Of a stretch of DNA of 64,000 nt, positions 51,621-60,165 are shown piece after piece (positions within the stretch are counted from its first letter, which is position 1; the number at the start of each line of letters is the position of its first letter). Under the pieces are notes generated by a model, which did no database searches, was not told the origin of the DNA, and saw nothing but the letters and a program-made list of their open reading frames with translations. The position numbers and the translations under genes were made by a program. Where the stretch lies: the NCBI RefSeq assembly GCF_001697185.1, contig NZ_CP014224.1, positions 2,712,501 through 2,776,500 on the forward strand, given 5' to 3'. This DNA is from Wenyingzhuangia fucanilytica (GTDB lineage: Bacteria; Bacteroidota; Bacteroidia; Flavobacteriales; Flavobacteriaceae).

Positions 51621-52325
51621 TTATTTTTTTGCGTTATAGCAATATTGATAAAGAGCACTAAAGTGTACTTTCATCTTCTCTCTTGCTTTATCTACATTTT
51701 GTTCTTTTATTGCTTCGTATATAGCTTCGTGCTCTACAATTCCTCTCTGAGACATCCCAGCATCACAAACATGATATTTTTCAAAGTTTGTAATAATATT
51801 AGGAGTAATCATCAACATGAGTTTATTCATGGTACTGTTTCCACTTGCTTGCGCAATAGCTAAATGGAATAACAAATCTTCTTGAACTGCTTTTTCTCCG
51901 TTGATTACTTTTTTCTTATAAGCATCTAAAGCTTTTTCCATTAATTTTAAATGCTCCTCTGTTCTTCTCTCAGCAGCTAAACTAACCGTTTTTAACTCAA
52001 ACATGATCCTTGTTTCTACTAACGATTTAAAGTCAGGATCTTCCAACCTCAAAATATCGTCAATCATTCCGTTCATGGCTATTTGTCCAATATCTGCAAC
52101 AAAGGTTCCACTTTGTGGTTTTGATTTTAGTAATCCGTAAAACTCAAGTAGCTGTATTGCTTCTCTAACATTACTTCTACTTACTTCAAACTTTTCAGAT
52201 AACATTCTCTCAGATGGCATCTTATCTCCTGGTTCAAGATTTTTAAGAATAATTAAATCTCGTAATTTAGATATAATTTCATTCTGACTTGTTTGCTCTC
52301 CTTTTGACAATAACTCTAACTTCAT
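51621..52325 (-). CDS. GntR/FadR-family regulator of the alginate locus
   Basis: A 234-residue transcription factor. The winged helix-turn-helix occupies about 15-80 (PGDKMPSERMLSEKFEVSRSNVREAIQLLEFYGLL), and an FCD ligand-binding domain follows (about 95-225) with likely metal or carboxylate-binding His. FadR-type regulators of this group often sense uronates or other sugar acids (ExuR, UxuR). A perfect palindrome of the ExuR/UxuR class sits 19-36 bp upstream of its own start, and two similar sites overlap the susC promoter, so it is probably the locus repressor and autoregulated. The inducer, perhaps KDG or DEH, is inferred. Confidence 0.88.
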   Translation of the reverse strand: MKLELLSKGEQTSQNEIISKLRDLIILKNLEPGDKMPSERMLSEKFEVSRSNVREAIQLLEFYGLLKSKPQSGTFVADIGQIAMNGMIDDILRLEDPDFKSLVETRIMFELKTVSLAAERRTEEHLKLMEKALDAYKKKVINGEKAVQEDLLFHLAIAQASGNSTMNKLMLMITPNIITNFEKYHVCDAGMSQRGIVEHEAIYEAIKEQNVDKAREKMKVHFSALYQYCYNAKK

Positions 52326-52343
52326 AGGAACATAGTTTTAATT

Positions 52344-52361
52344 AAATTGGTTAACCAATTT
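52344..52361. promoter_or_regulatory. Perfect palindromic GntR operator upstream of gntR
   Basis: AAATTGGTTAACCAATTT is an exact 18-bp palindrome with TGGT-N2-ACCA at its core. It is nearly the same as the known ExuR/UxuR operator type (AAATTGGTATACCAATTT). It lies in the 67-bp gap between the second PL7 gene and gntR. Confidence 0.75.
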
Positions 52362-52392
52362 TCATGTAGTAAATATATAAAAATTAGTTCTT

Positions 52393-53295
52393 TTAATGTG
52401 TAACATTTAACTGATAATATTCAACTTTAGCACTTGCTCCACTATCGGTAGTACTCAGGTAGTTACCAGCTTTAAAATAGTTTTCAAAAATCCCCCATTT
52501 TTGAATATGGATATCATTATAAACTTTTGAGGTATTATTCATGATTATTTCCATTCTACCTTCTGATATTTTTACTTGTAATTTAAATTTATCAAAACCT
52601 ACGTATTCTGGAAAATTATATCCTTCATCATCACCCCACGCATCTGTATGTAAAATTTCCTCATCAGATGCATTTAAATCTTTTAATACTTTAGTTTTTA
52701 CTCTAATATACCCTTTATGCCAGTATATTTTTAACATTGGTGGTGCGTTATTATCTTTTTGACCAATTAAATCACGTTGAGCATTTGTTAACCTTCCATG
52801 AATCTGCATGATAATGGTTCTATGATAATCTCCATTTTTATCTTTACTTATCTCGGCCATAGCCAACTCACCTGTCATAATTCCTCCTTGTGAAAAAGTC
52901 CAGTTTACAGAATTATCTCCTGCTTTTATTTGTTCTCTTAATTCAGTTCTAGAATAAGAAGTATTAGCAGTGGTACTACTTGGATAAGTATAAAACACTA
53001 AAGCTCCTTTAATAGAATCATTATACATGAATGGTTTTAAGGTTTCATTGGTTCCATAATCTAGAATCTCTGGTGGAGAAACTTCTGTTGGGTTACCAAT
53101 AGGTAAAGTTACTTTCCAATTACTTAAATCTATATTAGGCAAATTGTAATCTTTTTCTGGTGTTTCATCTTCTTCAACCACTACATCCCCACTATCCTTA
53201 TCATCATTCGATAACACATCATCATTATTAGCACTACAATTACTTAAAAATAATGCCAATACAATTACACTGTTATATAGAAGTTTTATGATCAT
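52393..53295 (-). CDS. PL7 alginate lyase, lipoprotein
   Basis: A 300-residue polysaccharide lyase family 7 enzyme that cleaves alginate by beta-elimination. The lipobox LSNC (Cys20) and an acidic linker (about 25-50) suggest anchoring to the outer membrane, perhaps facing outwards. The three PL7 motifs are SRTELREQ (115-122), QIHG (164-167) and YFKAGNY (273-279), giving Arg116, Gln164, His166 and Tyr273 or Tyr279 as candidate catalytic residues. QIH (rather than QVH/QTH) often goes with guluronate-containing substrates. It is a close paralogue of the next gene, 5 bp away. Confidence 0.92.
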   Translation of the reverse strand: MIIKLLYNSVIVLALFLSNCSANNDDVLSNDDKDSGDVVVEEDETPEKDYNLPNIDLSNWKVTLPIGNPTEVSPPEILDYGTNETLKPFMYNDSIKGALVFYTYPSSTTANTSYSRTELREQIKAGDNSVNWTFSQGGIMTGELAMAEISKDKNGDYHRTIIMQIHGRLTNAQRDLIGQKDNNAPPMLKIYWHKGYIRVKTKVLKDLNASDEEILHTDAWGDDEGYNFPEYVGFDKFKLQVKISEGRMEIIMNNTSKVYNDIHIQKWGIFENYFKAGNYLSTTDSGASAKVEYYQLNVTH

Positions 53296-53300
53296 TTATA

Positions 53301-54221
53301 TTAATGTTTAACTTTTAACTTATAATAATTAACCTTTGCAAAAGCTCCTTCATCTCTAGACTGAAAGTAATTTCCAGCTTTAAAATAGTTCTCAAAAACT
53401 CCCCATTTTTCCATATGAATGTTATCGTAAACTTTATAATCAAAATTATTTAAGACTACAATTAACTTCCCTTCTGACACCTTAACTTCTAAAGTAAATT
53501 TTCTATGTCCTACTTCTTGATCAAAGGTGTAACCTTCATCATCACCCCAAGCTTCATCATGCAAAATCTCTTCATCAGAAGCATCTAAATTTTTAAGAAC
53601 TTTTGTTTTGACACGAATTTTACCATTTTGCCAATATATTTTTAAAATAGGTGGTGCATTATTATCCTTTTGCCCTATTAAATCACGTTGCTCATTGGTT
53701 AACCTTCCATGGATCTGCATAATGATTACCTTATGAGGTTTACCGTCGCTATCTTTAGAAATTTCATCAACTTTTAAAACTCCTTTCATAGTTCCCCCCT
53801 GTTTAAATGTCCAGTTTACATTATTATTTCCTGGTTCCATTTGTTCTCTAAGTTCTGAACGAGAATATTTGGTGTTTGCAGTTGTTGCATTACTTGGATA
53901 AGCATAAAACACTAAAGCTCCGGTTATAGAATCATTATACATGTATGGAGTTAACCTTTTATCAGTTGCATATTTTAAAATCTCAGGAGGCTCAACATTA
54001 GTCGCTTTACCTTTGTGATTTAGTTCTGGTGTAGTAACACTCCAATGGCTTAAATCAATTTTAGATAATTTGTATTTTTTCTTCTTCTTTTTTGATTTCT
54101 TTTTTACCTCAACTGATTTTTCCACTTCTGTGGTACTACTTGCCTTTTCTTGGCAAGTAGCATTCACAGATAGGAAAGTAATAACTACAACAAGTATAAA
54201 TTCTTTTTTAAAGTAATTCAT
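53301..54221 (-). CDS. PL7 alginate lyase, signal-peptidase-I type
   Basis: A 306-residue PL7 lyase, clearly a tandem duplicate of its neighbour (about 60% identical by eye over the catalytic domain). The signal peptide ends near NATCQ, without a proper lipobox, so the enzyme is probably periplasmic or secreted, unlike the lipoprotein copy. A strongly basic Lys-rich linker (about 39-50) precedes the lyase domain. Motifs are YSRSELREQ with Arg121, QIHG (169-172) and a later YFKAGNY. The two lyases probably act in different compartments. Confidence 0.92.
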   Translation of the reverse strand: MNYFKKEFILVVVITFLSVNATCQEKASSTTEVEKSVEVKKKSKKKKKKYKLSKIDLSHWSVTTPELNHKGKATNVEPPEILKYATDKRLTPYMYNDSITGALVFYAYPSNATTANTKYSRSELREQMEPGNNNVNWTFKQGGTMKGVLKVDEISKDSDGKPHKVIIMQIHGRLTNEQRDLIGQKDNNAPPILKIYWQNGKIRVKTKVLKNLDASDEEILHDEAWGDDEGYTFDQEVGHRKFTLEVKVSEGKLIVVLNNFDYKVYDNIHMEKWGVFENYFKAGNYFQSRDEGAFAKVNYYKLKVKH

Positions 54222-55125: not shown

Positions 55126-56553
55126 TTAATTGTTATAACCAGGGTTTTGCTTAAGAACTCCATTACTTAAACCAATTTCTGAGTTAGGGATTGGCAATAA
55201 TAAATCTGTTCCAGAAAAACTATATCCGTTTGCTGCAGAGAAAGCAGATAAGATAGATTGAGCCTCACCAAAGCGAACTAAGTCAAAAAATCTTTGATTC
55301 TCAAAAGCTAACTCTACTCTACGCTCGTTTAACAAATCTTCTTTTGTAATAATTGCTGGAGTTGTTAAACCTGCTCTATCTCTAATTAATTTAAAAGAAG
55401 CAATTGCATTTGTACTAGTAGTTGATGCTCCACCAGCTAAGATTGATTCTACATGCATTAAAACAACATCTGCATAACGTAATACAATCCAGTCATTTCC
55501 TGCTAATGTTGGGTCTGTAGAAGTAGGATCAATTCCTAAACTTGCATCTCCATTAGGTAAATATTTTACTACTTGATATTGTGTAGTTTGTCCTGCATCT
55601 TGTCTAAATGCATATTTTGATCTTTCTACACCTCCATAAGTAGCAAAAGCATTTCTTACATCAGCAGTAACATAATTCATTCCACTTGTTCTACCTACAG
55701 AATTTAACCATTCTGCTGAAAAGTTTTGACTATCATTTACAGCATTTCCGTTGTATCCAATTGCAAAAATTACCTCATCATTACCTTCTGTATAAAAGAT
55801 ATCTTTATAGTCAGCTTCTAATGAAAAACCACGTGATGGCTGCATAATAGATTCACATAAAGTTTGTGCTCCACTATAATTTCCTGTTGTTAAATATACT
55901 TTTGCTAATAAACCTTCTGCAGCAGCTTTTGAAGCTCTGTTTTTAGATCCATCTGTCAATCCATTAATAGCAGTTGTTAAATCACTAATAATTAAAGAGT
56001 ATACATCTGCTGTAGGTACTCTTGTAAAAGAAACATCTGTTTCTAATGGAGCAATAACTCTATCAATTAACGGAACATCTCCAAACAAACGAACTAAGTT
56101 AAAATAAGCATAAGCTCTTACAAATTTTGCTTCTCCTTCAAACTGAGCTTTTTTAGTAGTAGCAGCATCAATGTTTTCTAAAACTGTGTTAGCTCTATAT
56201 ATTACATTATACATACTTCTATAATAATCGGCTACAATACCGTTTGTTGATTGAACAGTATAAGTTTCAAACTGAGCTGCTTCACCTTCACCACTTTTAG
56301 TTCTGGTATTATCACTTCTCATTTCTGTAAGATAGAACTCAATTTGTGTTGAGTGATTACTATCAGAGTCTGTATCATTTACTCCTTGTAAACCATCGTA
56401 CATATTAATTACTCCAGCCTCTAACTCTTCTTCGTTGTTATAAAAACCATCTGCTGAAATAGCCGAGGTAGGCAGCGGGCTTAAAAAGTCATCTTCACAC
56501 GAAGCGGCGAATATGGCTAAAAAAACTACGGTTATAAATTTTATATTTTTCAT
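55126..56553 (-). CDS. susD: RagB/SusD family alginate-binding lipoprotein
   Basis: A 475-residue SusD-like protein: the lid and substrate-binding partner of the SusC transporter. The signal peptide ends at lipobox AASC (Cys19). TPR-like repeats fill the N-terminal half (VRAYAYFNLVRLFGDVPLI is the usual motif), and the C-terminal region has LNERRVELAFENQRFFDLVRF, characteristic of the family. It follows susC by 22 bp and precedes the PKD lipoprotein by 5 bp. Confidence 0.94.
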   Translation of the reverse strand: MKNIKFITVVFLAIFAASCEDDFLSPLPTSAISADGFYNNEEELEAGVINMYDGLQGVNDTDSDSNHSTQIEFYLTEMRSDNTRTKSGEGEAAQFETYTVQSTNGIVADYYRSMYNVIYRANTVLENIDAATTKKAQFEGEAKFVRAYAYFNLVRLFGDVPLIDRVIAPLETDVSFTRVPTADVYSLIISDLTTAINGLTDGSKNRASKAAAEGLLAKVYLTTGNYSGAQTLCESIMQPSRGFSLEADYKDIFYTEGNDEVIFAIGYNGNAVNDSQNFSAEWLNSVGRTSGMNYVTADVRNAFATYGGVERSKYAFRQDAGQTTQYQVVKYLPNGDASLGIDPTSTDPTLAGNDWIVLRYADVVLMHVESILAGGASTTSTNAIASFKLIRDRAGLTTPAIITKEDLLNERRVELAFENQRFFDLVRFGEAQSILSAFSAANGYSFSGTDLLLPIPNSEIGLSNGVLKQNPGYNN

Positions 56554-56575: not shown

Positions 56576-59500
56576 TTAAAATTCTACATTTAATCCTACA
56601 GAAATGGTTCTAAAAATTGGAGAACCTGCTCTTTGATATCCATAAGTAGTAGCGCTTGTATCATCAATTGATTCTGGATTAAACCCTGTATAGTCACTAG
56701 CTGTTAAATACAATAGGTTTTGTCCTGTAGCATATACTCTTGCTTTTGATAATCCTAATTTAGAAGCCATGTCTTTTGAAAAATTGTATCCAATATTTAC
56801 ATTTCTTAAAGCAACATATGATGCATCTTGAACAATAGAGTTTGTAAAGATTTTTTCTTTAATAAACCCTTGATTTGGTGTTGTTGCAGGGTTAAAATCT
56901 TGTGCACTGTTAAAGTGGTTAAAGATGTATTGGTCTCCCATGTTTCTTACTTTAGCCCCATGACTTCCTTGGAACATAAAACTAAAATCTACTTGTCCTA
57001 ATTTAAAATCATTTGTTAAACTCCATACAAAATCTGGATAAGGATCTCCTAAATTTGCTTTATCATCATCGTCAATTACTCCATCACCATTTAAATCTTT
57101 TACATAAACATCTTGAGCTTCTGCTCCAATTGGATGATATGGATCATTTAAATATTCTACTGGAATTTCTTTATCTACTACCCATCCATAAAATGATGAA
57201 ATAGGTTGTCCTTCTGAGTTAATCCACTCAGCAGCTCTTTTAGTATCTACATTCTGAATTTGTCCGTTAGAATCTGCAAAATTTACTAAAGTATTTTTGT
57301 TAAATGACCCTATAAAAGATGAAGTCCATCTAAAGAAACTAGTAGAAAGGTTCTTAGTTCTTAATTCAAATTCTAAACCTTCGTTTTGTACCTCTCCTAA
57401 ATTCACAAGAGCATTACTAAATCCTGTTGTAGATGATACTGGGTTATATAATAATAACTGATCACTATTACGCTTATAATAATCTACAGAACCAGAAATT
57501 CTATTATTAAAGAATCCAAAATCAACCCCTGGGTTAATCTCTACAGAACGCTCCCATTGTAAATCTGCATTGGCTATGTTAATAGGGTTAAAAGCTGTAG
57601 TTACATCACCATCTACTATTGCAGTAGAAGGGTTTAATAATGCTAATGATGGATAGTTATCTATTAAATCATCACCAGTATCAATTAATGGATTTCCTGT
57701 TATACCGTAACTTACTCTAAACTTTAAGTTGCTAATAAGATCACTGTTTTTTAAGAAATCTTCTTTTGCAATATTCCAACCTACAGAAGCTGCTGGGAAG
57801 TTACCATACTTTTGATTTTTTCCGAAAACAGATACTCCATCACGACGAACACTTAAAGAGAATAGGTATTTACTATCAAAAGCATAATTTACCCTTCCGA
57901 AGTAAGACAATAAGTTTCTTTCATATTCATATGAGTTATAATCTGAAATAGATGTTGCTGCTCTCATTGTTTGTAATAAATCAGAACTATATCCAGTACC
58001 TTGAGTAGTTTCATAATTATAATTCCAAGTTTCTACAGAAGTACCTAAAATAGCATTTACATCATGTTTTCCGAATGATTTATCATAGCTAAGGAAGTTC
58101 TCATTTGCCAAGTGAATTTGCTTTTCATTTGTAAGATCTAACTGTGCAGCACTTGCTCCGTTTCTGTTAGACAATACTCCTTGCCATCTTCTTCTATCAG
58201 TATACTGAACATCCCCTCCTAAAGTTGTTTTAAAACTTAAGTCTTTAGTAAAATCGTATTTAGCATATACACTACCATACATTTTAAACTTTTTATCTCT
58301 TCTGTCTCTCTCTAAAACTTTAGCCGCTGGGTTTGTATTTGATGTATTACTAATATCTATTAAAGTACCATTCCCATCTAAATCATAATTATCAAAATGA
58401 CGTTGTAATGCATAGTCTCCAACTTTTACATCAGGATAAACAGTTCTATCAACAAACTGAATAGTATTATCATCATGGTACACTGGTAACCAAGAAGGTT
58501 GTCTTAAAATATCATGAGTAGAACCATCAAAACGTCTAGTTTCTGTGTAAGATGGTGAAAGATTTGCACCAAAAGAAAATTTATCATTTACCTCTGTGTC
58601 AATCTTAGCTTTTAAATTGTATTTCTTAAAATCATCAGTAAGCATTACTCCCTCATCATGTAAATAATTTAAAGAAGTACTGAACTTAGTTCTTTTACTA
58701 CCTCCTCTTGCAGATAATGAATGACTAGTAATTGTTCCACCATCAAAAGCAATATCTTGCCAGTTAGTATCTACACCAATTAATTGCTTATAACGAGTTC
58801 TAGCAGACAATGTACCTGTAGCTGCTTGTTCTGCTGCTACAGTTCCAGCCACAGTAGAATAGTAAGCATCGCTTTGTCTTGCTTCTTTTAAACCAGTATA
58901 AGCACTATAAGTAAATTTAGTTTTACCTTCTTTACCTGTTTTAGTAGAAATCATGATTACCCCTTTACTACCTCTAGATCCATAAATAGCTGTAGAAGCT
59001 GCATCTTTTAAAATCTCAAAAGATTCAACATCATTCATATCTAATGCACTTAGATAATCATTATCCACAACCAATCCATCTACTACAATTAATGGATCAA
59101 TTCCTCCAGAAATAGAACCTACACCACGCACTCTAATAGTTGGAGCAGCACCTGCACCACCATCGGTAGCTTGAATGTTTACCCCAGAAACTTGACCTAC
59201 TAAAGCATCATCTACACGAGATACTGCTATTTGATCTAAGGTTTCGTTTTTAACTTTTGAAATAGCTCCGGTTAAGTGAGATTTCTTTTGACTACCATAT
59301 CCTACAATTACAACCTCATCTAACTCAGATGAATCCTCTTGAAGCTTAGTAGAAATCTTTTTTTGATCTGAAACAACAATTTCTTGTGTTTTAAATCCTA
59401 AATATGACAACACAATCACATCTCCTTTTTTTACCGTAATTTGATAATTACCATCAAAATCAGAAATTGTTCCTGTGGAAGTTCCTTTAATAATTACGTT

Positions 59501-59629
59501 TGCTCCTGGAATTGGACTATTATCCGTACCAGACAAAACAGTCCCTGTTAAACTGTAGTTTTCCTGAGCAAACAATGCCATATTGAAAAACAATAAAGCA
59601 ATTAATGTTATACTTTTCTTTAGTTTCAT
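56576..59629 (-). CDS. susC: SusC/RagA family TonB-dependent transporter
   Basis: A 1017-residue outer-membrane importer. The signal peptide ends ALFAQ (about 22). A carboxypeptidase-regulatory-like domain (about 26-105) contains TGTVLSGTDNSPIPGANV; the TonB-box-like region DEVVIVGYG precedes the plug (about 115-230), and a 22-strand beta-barrel follows to the C-terminus, which ends in an aromatic-containing strand. It should import alginate oligosaccharides using TonB energy. It leads the susC-susD-PKD-PL7-PL7 transcript and has a predicted leader of about 330 nt. Confidence 0.95.
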   Translation of the reverse strand: MKLKKSITLIALLFFNMALFAQENYSLTGTVLSGTDNSPIPGANVIIKGTSTGTISDFDGNYQITVKKGDVIVLSYLGFKTQEIVVSDQKKISTKLQEDSSELDEVVIVGYGSQKKSHLTGAISKVKNETLDQIAVSRVDDALVGQVSGVNIQATDGGAGAAPTIRVRGVGSISGGIDPLIVVDGLVVDNDYLSALDMNDVESFEILKDAASTAIYGSRGSKGVIMISTKTGKEGKTKFTYSAYTGLKEARQSDAYYSTVAGTVAAEQAATGTLSARTRYKQLIGVDTNWQDIAFDGGTITSHSLSARGGSKRTKFSTSLNYLHDEGVMLTDDFKKYNLKAKIDTEVNDKFSFGANLSPSYTETRRFDGSTHDILRQPSWLPVYHDDNTIQFVDRTVYPDVKVGDYALQRHFDNYDLDGNGTLIDISNTSNTNPAAKVLERDRRDKKFKMYGSVYAKYDFTKDLSFKTTLGGDVQYTDRRRWQGVLSNRNGASAAQLDLTNEKQIHLANENFLSYDKSFGKHDVNAILGTSVETWNYNYETTQGTGYSSDLLQTMRAATSISDYNSYEYERNLLSYFGRVNYAFDSKYLFSLSVRRDGVSVFGKNQKYGNFPAASVGWNIAKEDFLKNSDLISNLKFRVSYGITGNPLIDTGDDLIDNYPSLALLNPSTAIVDGDVTTAFNPINIANADLQWERSVEINPGVDFGFFNNRISGSVDYYKRNSDQLLLYNPVSSTTGFSNALVNLGEVQNEGLEFELRTKNLSTSFFRWTSSFIGSFNKNTLVNFADSNGQIQNVDTKRAAEWINSEGQPISSFYGWVVDKEIPVEYLNDPYHPIGAEAQDVYVKDLNGDGVIDDDDKANLGDPYPDFVWSLTNDFKLGQVDFSFMFQGSHGAKVRNMGDQYIFNHFNSAQDFNPATTPNQGFIKEKIFTNSIVQDASYVALRNVNIGYNFSKDMASKLGLSKARVYATGQNLLYLTASDYTGFNPESIDDTSATTYGYQRAGSPIFRTISVGLNVEF

Positions 59630-59762
59630 TGGTATTAGTGTTAAGTTAAGTTAATAATTGACGAGTTTAAACCCCTGTTATAGAGTGTTACATAAATACT
59701 AGCTTGCTTTGCTTAACTTATGTTTAAACTCCCCTTAACACGCTTTACATAGATAATTTTCT

Positions 59763-59770
59763 TATTTTTG
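59763..59770 (+). promoter_or_regulatory. Putative -7 box for an antisense RNA
   Basis: TATTTTTG on the plus strand matches TAnnTTTG. It points into the susC leader region, 76 bp before a terminator stem. No clean TTG lies at the usual upstream spacing. Confidence 0.4.
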
Positions 59771-59775
59771 CAAAA

Positions 59776-59876
59776 GCGTGTTTATTCATAGTTCACATGC
59801 TTTAAATATTACTTCCCTTCAGAATGAAGTAATTTTACCTTATAGAGGATGGGCGTGCACCCATCCTTTATTTTTT
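59776..59876 (+). ncRNA. Candidate antisense small RNA in the susC leader
   Basis: A roughly 100-nt plus-strand transcript is predicted between the -7 box at 59763-59770 and the terminator ending at 59876. It is fully complementary to part of the predicted susC leader. A small hairpin (CTTC-AGAAT-GAAG type) lies near its middle. Bacteroides PUL regions are known to carry sRNAs antisense to the susC leader, which is the precedent; here it is inference from promoter-like and terminator-like sequence only. Confidence 0.4.
59846..59876 (+). terminator. Plus-strand terminator within the susC leader
   Basis: An 8-bp GC-rich stem AGGATGGG / CCCATCCT with a CGTGCA loop, followed by TTATTTTTT. All coding genes nearby are on the minus strand, so a terminator here needs an unannotated plus-strand transcript to serve. 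Confidence 0.7.
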
Positions 59877-59943
59877 CCCCTAAGTTTCGCCTTTCATATA
59901 TAGTTTAATAGTTTGCATTTTAACGTTGTTTAAGTTTAAATTA

Positions 59944-59972
59944 AATTGGTTTACCAGTTTGGTTTACCAAAT
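59944..59972. promoter_or_regulatory. Two tandem GntR-type operators at the susC promoter
   Basis: AATTGGTTTACCAG and TTTGGTTTACCAAA each contain TGGT-TT-ACCA, with centres 13 bp apart. They match the palindrome upstream of gntR in their TGGT/ACCA arms. The second overlaps the susC -7 box, so a bound regulator would block transcription. Confidence 0.7.
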
Positions 59973-59998
59973 ATATACAATAGGATTAGGATAAACAA
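59968..59998 (-). promoter_or_regulatory. susC operon promoter
   Basis: On the minus strand, TTG (59996-59998) is followed after 20 bp by TATATTTG (59975-59968), a full match to the Bacteroidota promoter consensus. Transcription should start near 59962, giving a leader of about 330 nt. Confidence 0.65.
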
Positions 59999-60101
59999 AT
60001 TTTTATTTAAAATTTATTATATAAACACAAAAAAAATAGGATAAAATTACACATACACCATATTACAGTTGGTTTATTTAACAAAATGATATTTTATAAA
60101 T

Positions 60102-60133
60102 AAAAAAGGATGAGTAAATACTCATCCTTTTTT
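60102..60133 (-). terminator. Terminator after the PL17-kdgF-SDR transcript
   Basis: A perfect 15-bp stem AAAAAAGGATGAGTA / TACTCATCCTTTTTT with a 2-nt centre. The A/T runs are symmetrical, so it may act on both strands, insulating the two alginate transcripts. Confidence 0.88.
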
Positions 60134-60165
60134 ATTTATAGAAAACTATGTATATAAATTACATA

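Follow-up and report, generated by a model that had tools for sequence, protein, structure and literature searches.

Antisense RNAs linked to PULs repress their cognate PULs in Bacteroides (PMC7366714, PMC10994844). In B. thetaiotaomicron, 32 PUL antisense RNAs are known, whose correlation with the PUL can be both negative and positive (PMC7366714, PMC10994844). RNAs of the DonS type are 78-128 nt long and reduce susC expression (Cao et al. 2016, cited in PMC7366714, PMC10994844). The statement in the original prediction that antisense sRNAs at susC leaders are known from Bacteroides PULs is correct for gut Bacteroides, DonS and others being examples (PMC7366714, PMC10994844).

The window analysed here is a stretch of 64,000 nucleotides from Wenyingzhuangia fucanilytica, in which the coding genes from 49.3 kb to the window edge are all on the minus strand. 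They include an alginate PUL that encodes SusC, SusD, a PKD lipoprotein, two PL7 lyases and an FCD-type GntR regulator, together with an MFS transporter, SDRs, a cupin and a PL17-like lyase (Table 1). Between susC and the next gene lies an intergenic gap of 536 bp (59630-60165), and it was in this gap that the original prediction, made from the sequence alone, had placed a plus-strand -7 box and terminator. The gene orientation, the gap and both signals are all present as it described them. The predicted antisense RNA overlaps the susC leader over its upstream half, without reaching the start codon. Elsewhere in the gap, at 60100-60140 and 3' of an SDR gene, an A/T-flanked hairpin (GGATGAGTA/TACTCATCC) appears by eye to be the terminator of the upstream minus-strand operon; the terminator scan missed it because its loop is too short.

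Table 1. Features of the alginate PUL and of the susC leader region (window positions).
Feature	Position	Strand	Remarks
FCD-type GntR regulator (possible repressor acting at the operators)	51621..52325	-	Pfam GntR + FCD
Two PL7 alginate lyases	52393-53295, 53301-54221	-	Pfam Alginate_lyase2 PF08787
susD	55126..56553	-	Pfam SusD-like_3, SusD_RagB
susC, encoding a TonB-dependent receptor; first gene behind the leader	56576..59629	-	Pfam CarbopepD_reg_2, Plug, TonB_dep_Rec_b-barrel
susC 5' leader, ~330 nt	59630..59963	-	Start site inferred from the -7 box
-7 promoter box TATTTTTG (TAnnTTTG) of the antisense RNA	59763..59770	+	Conserved in homologous loci
Predicted antisense sRNA, ~104 nt	59774..59877	+	5' end inferred 4-7 nt past the -7 box; 3' end = T run
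Hairpin 1, sequence variable	59773..59803	+	8/8 consensus pairs covary
Hairpin 2, UUACUUCCCU...GAAGUAA	59808..59833	+	CCCU at the 5' side of the loop highly conserved
Terminator hairpin GGAUGGG-CGUGCA-CCCAUCC + T run	59842..59877	+	Loop partly self-complementary (UGCA)
Two TTGGTTTACCA operators, 13 bp apart	59946..59969		Cover the expected susC start site
-7 box TATATTTG of the facing susC promoter	59968..59975	-	Complement CAAATATA adjoins the operators in nearly all loci

The terminator hairpin itself (59842-59871) has 12 bp and a 6-nt loop; a T6 run comes directly after it (59872-59877), at a distance of 213 bp from the susC ATG. A 112-nt plus-strand RNA is predicted to fold into three hairpins at -31.9 kcal/mol (z = -6.1), a value that none of 200 shuffles equalled. 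The box and the terminator do exist, but in the window alone neither class of signal rises above chance: a promoter scan based on E. coli-type promoters gave 39 sites against 37.9 expected, and terminator-like sites numbered 3 against 2.6. A T-rich stretch lies immediately 5' of the antisense TAnnTTTG box, and no TTG is found at -33 of this promoter in the window, which the original prediction had counted as a weakness. We do not share this concern, because the element is absent family-wide, TTG being rarer in the -33 zone across loci (10/78) than at control positions (21), and because RNA-seq in Flavobacterium johnsoniae revealed a -7 motif and no -33 motif (PMC7366714). The absence of a -33 TTG is ordinary for flavobacteria. 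A conserved small ORF within the RNA was considered and rejected, as inspection by eye found the ATG of the window to be lost in relatives. An inverted repeat at 59738-59783 (AACACGCTTT...AAAGCGTGTT) lies on both sides of the antisense -7 box; by eye it is retained in same-genus relatives through compensating changes, and it could be an operator or a sense-leader hairpin.

A search of 60 related genomes at the DNA level found the region in three genomes of the same genus and in more distant genera. Ten loci shared a TAnnTTTG box 79-86 nt 5' of a GGAtgGGCGTGCACC terminator, with an TTACTTCCCT...GAAGTAA hairpin in between. With a covariance model whose query was the plus strand of window positions 59763-59882, the RNA was detected in 86 of 397 sampled Flavobacteriaceae genomes and in 69 of 237 genera, nearly always as a single copy. 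The source genome likewise holds one copy (E 4.3e-22), the next-best match there having an E of 0.16. At least 80 stretches with the RNA come from named genomes, among them Zobellia, Maribacter, Aquimarina, Lutibacter, Algibacter, Robiginitalea and three Wenyingzhuangia. Genomes sampled across the order and the class yielded no believable match outside Flavobacteriaceae; the sole class-level match (genome G919, E 8.7e-4) was a lone terminator without PUL genes. At the gathering score, Rfam 15 gave no match in the window or in 11 homologous loci, and relaxing the threshold to E 5 brought up only weak matches of no relation. Two weak matches (L143 and L145) were excluded from all counts, and the weakest model matches are not among the loci inspected below.

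One outcome named in advance as refuting the RNA was that relatives carrying this PUL would not conserve the hairpin and the -7 box. Both proved to be conserved. TAnnTTTG is exact in 63 of 78 homologous loci and has at most one mismatch in 77, where about 0.05 of 78 would be expected at a fixed offset, and the terminator and the middle hairpin covary. Across 80 distinct sequences, 95.9% of cells were paired, compared with 87.9% after shuffling and 44-61% with slid partners; double-sided changes were seen in 18 of 27 pairs, and the covariation score was 0.290 against 0.154 (0/500 shuffles).

The position of the RNA is as consistent as its fold. In 75 of the 78 inspected loci it runs antisense to a susC leader within an alginate PUL, with 48-154 nt (median 115) between the antisense -7 box and the susC ATG, and a lyase match lies within 7 kb of the RNA in 69 loci. 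Both the RNA and PL7 occur in 78 genomes, the RNA only in 8, PL7 only in 20 and neither in 291 (Fisher p 8e-54, uncorrected for relatedness). One genome with PL7 and without the RNA (G020) has kept the operators and has an apparent decayed remnant of hairpin 2, with no terminator. The three remaining loci, L071, L111 and L132, are missing susCD. In L071 and L111 the sense leader reads into the apparent last codons of susD or PL7, and the loss of susCD (in L111 also of PL7) looks like a recent deletion that has left promoter, operators and antisense RNA ahead of apparent coding scraps; these two loci are natural experiments on the function of the RNA. The conserved CCCU loop of the RNA is gone in L132. 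That the RNA is kept without susCD was rejected as proof of a role in trans, because L071 and L111 appear to keep deletion scraps and L132 is without the conserved loop. The fold, the family-wide covariation and the placement in 75 of 78 loci all uphold the antisense RNA gene of about 100 nt that the original prediction had proposed for the alginate susC leader, and we regard the existence of a conserved antisense RNA gene as close to certain.

The promoter that faces this RNA is also marked by conserved sequences. Two to three copies of TTGGTTTACCA, spaced at 13-bp steps, lie to the right of the terminator in nearly every locus, beside CAAATATA and at the place where susC transcription is expected to begin. 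FCD-type regulators bind TGGT-N-ACCA palindromes, and it is probably the PUL's own FCD-type GntR that binds the TTGGTTTACCA operators, although both the identity of this GntR as the regulator and its binding are inferred. An operator-like sequence directly 5' of gntR (52334-52382; 80% match, E 0.001) suggests autoregulation. About 1.9 kb to the right of the window end, at G000:C1:2778432 (L252), a second exact double operator is followed by CAAATATA and is presumably the promoter of another alginate operon. The operators could be used for mapping the alginate regulon.

The reading we favour, and consider probable though by no means settled, is that a DonS-like cis-antisense RNA of about 100 nt pairs with the nascent susC leader and filters out leaky expression; its transcription and the repression are both inferred. 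Its own TAnnTTTG promoter would drive the RNA against the alginate susCD leader, and its own intrinsic terminator would end it. Without alginate, a GntR-type repressor bound to the operators that overlap the susC start site would permit little leader to be made, and what leaked through would meet an excess of the antisense RNA, with pairing beginning at the exposed loops. The resulting duplex of leader and antisense RNA would be cut or would stall the transcript, and the outer-membrane transporter would not be made. Once alginate products freed the operators, sense transcription could overtake the antisense RNA, and convergent sense transcription might also lower its level, giving a threshold switch. 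With some 60-170 nt left between the RNA and the start codon, a block of translation would be less likely than decay, early termination or interference. The positive correlation of some Bacteroides PUL antisense RNAs with their PUL (PMC10994844) counts against a reading based on repression in cis.

An alternative is that the element, which is situated within the inferred susC leader, functions as part of the sense mRNA, forming a hairpin in the leader or an attenuator of susC, and that the antisense promoter is incidental. Such a role would be consistent with the fold of the sense leader (z -3.0) and with the roughly 4.5 T among the 8 nt on the sense side of the terminator hairpin; the corresponding run on the antisense strand, however, holds 7.3 T. 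The covariance-model alignment is biased toward its own structure, but in a structure-free alignment the plus strand had nine double-change pairs and a consensus fold of -28.2 kcal/mol, whereas the minus strand had four and the weaker value of -17.3. Judged from these comparisons of sequence, it is the antisense strand that carries the structure, because G-U pairs on the antisense RNA far exceed A-C mismatches, by 194:9 in the model alignment and by 50:1 when 69 terminators were anchored on their GG/CC ends alone. With the antisense -7 box conserved as well, we hold an element acting in the sense mRNA to be improbable. It is also conceivable that the act of antisense transcription matters, through polymerase collision, and not the RNA product. 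The two promoters do face each other over a short leader in nearly all loci, but covarying hairpins and conserved loop letters are not what interference would maintain, and we give this explanation very little credence.

A different question is raised by the loops, where the letters CCCU and CGUGCA, and UUACUUCCCU on the 5' side of the hairpin 2 loop, are conserved across genera. A pure cis target is always complementary, so conserved loop letters would be unneeded and something else may also read them. The RNA could be an sRNA that acts in trans and only happens to be encoded across from the susC leader; its loops, CUUCCCU and CGUGCA, would then bind a protein or base-pair with other mRNAs, in the manner of FopS/GibS in Bacteroides. 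The FopS sRNAs act in trans to repress susC mRNAs, and they include four that are classified as antisense RNAs (PMC11697453). Yet the complements of the loops are enriched neither in the 7-kb PUL flanks nor at gene starts, and only one of 19 AGGGAAGTA sites in the source genome lies near an ORF start, although no genome-wide target prediction was made. The position of the RNA is, moreover, constant across the family, and the RNA is altered in L132, which is without susCD. We therefore consider a purely trans-acting RNA unlikely. A dual RNA, which would pair in cis with the susC leader and have a second, family-wide role for its conserved loops (CUUCCCU; GUGCAC), is possible but remains doubtful; if true, that role might consist of loop-loop dimers, or of pairing with other mRNAs that would tie alginate use to other metabolism. 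The terminator loop (59854-59859) is mostly CGUGCA, part of the self-complementary GUGCAC, and several of its variants are again self-complementary. Self-complementary terminator loops occur in 65 of 78 loci, against 28.6 expected from shuffles, which mostly reflects shared ancestry and is no more than a hint of loop-loop dimers.

Pairing in cis with the susC leader remains our preferred reading, and its interest lies in the breadth of the family, which extends over dozens of genera of marine seaweed degraders. One structured RNA family is tied to one substrate system, alginate, across much of Flavobacteriaceae, which are important degraders of brown-algal carbon, and it offers a single testable regulator common to cultured Zobellia, Maribacter, Aquimarina, Lutibacter and Wenyingzhuangia. 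Its natural variants and natural losses make the purpose of PUL antisense RNAs directly testable, and it adds a family that is absent from Rfam 15. The original prediction had supposed that such a case in a flavobacterial alginate PUL was undescribed. Our literature search found no alginate or flavobacterial susC-leader antisense RNA, and there was no Rfam 15 match; most subscription papers were outside the search, however, and novelty is unproven.

Compared with known systems, the RNA most closely resembles DonS of Bacteroides, which is likewise about 100 nt long, has its own promoter and lies opposite the 5' end of a PUL susC homologue. The corresponding features are present here, with a predicted length of ~104 nt, a conserved -7 box and terminator, and a position opposite the susC 5' end in 75 of 78 loci. 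Unlike DonS, the present RNA belongs to another bacterial family and another substrate, alginate; it faces an operator-bearing promoter beside an FCD-GntR gene, and it forms one alginate-bound structured family in 69 genera, for which repression is inferred only. The FopS and GibS small RNAs of Bacteroides thetaiotaomicron also act on mRNAs of SusC-type transporters (PMC11697453), but FopS is a 14-copy family that acts in trans at the translation start (PMC11697453), whereas the present RNA is usually single-copy, bound to its locus and ends well before the start codon. Short antisense transcripts do occur within Flavobacteriaceae, in Flavobacterium psychrophilum (PMC9723704); those described there overlap coding sequences, and the accessible part of that report names no alginate PUL or susC-leader RNA. 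RNAs of this kind are known. New, within the limits of what could be tested, are the family itself, how deeply it is conserved, its tie to a single substrate and the operator-bearing promoter with which it is paired.
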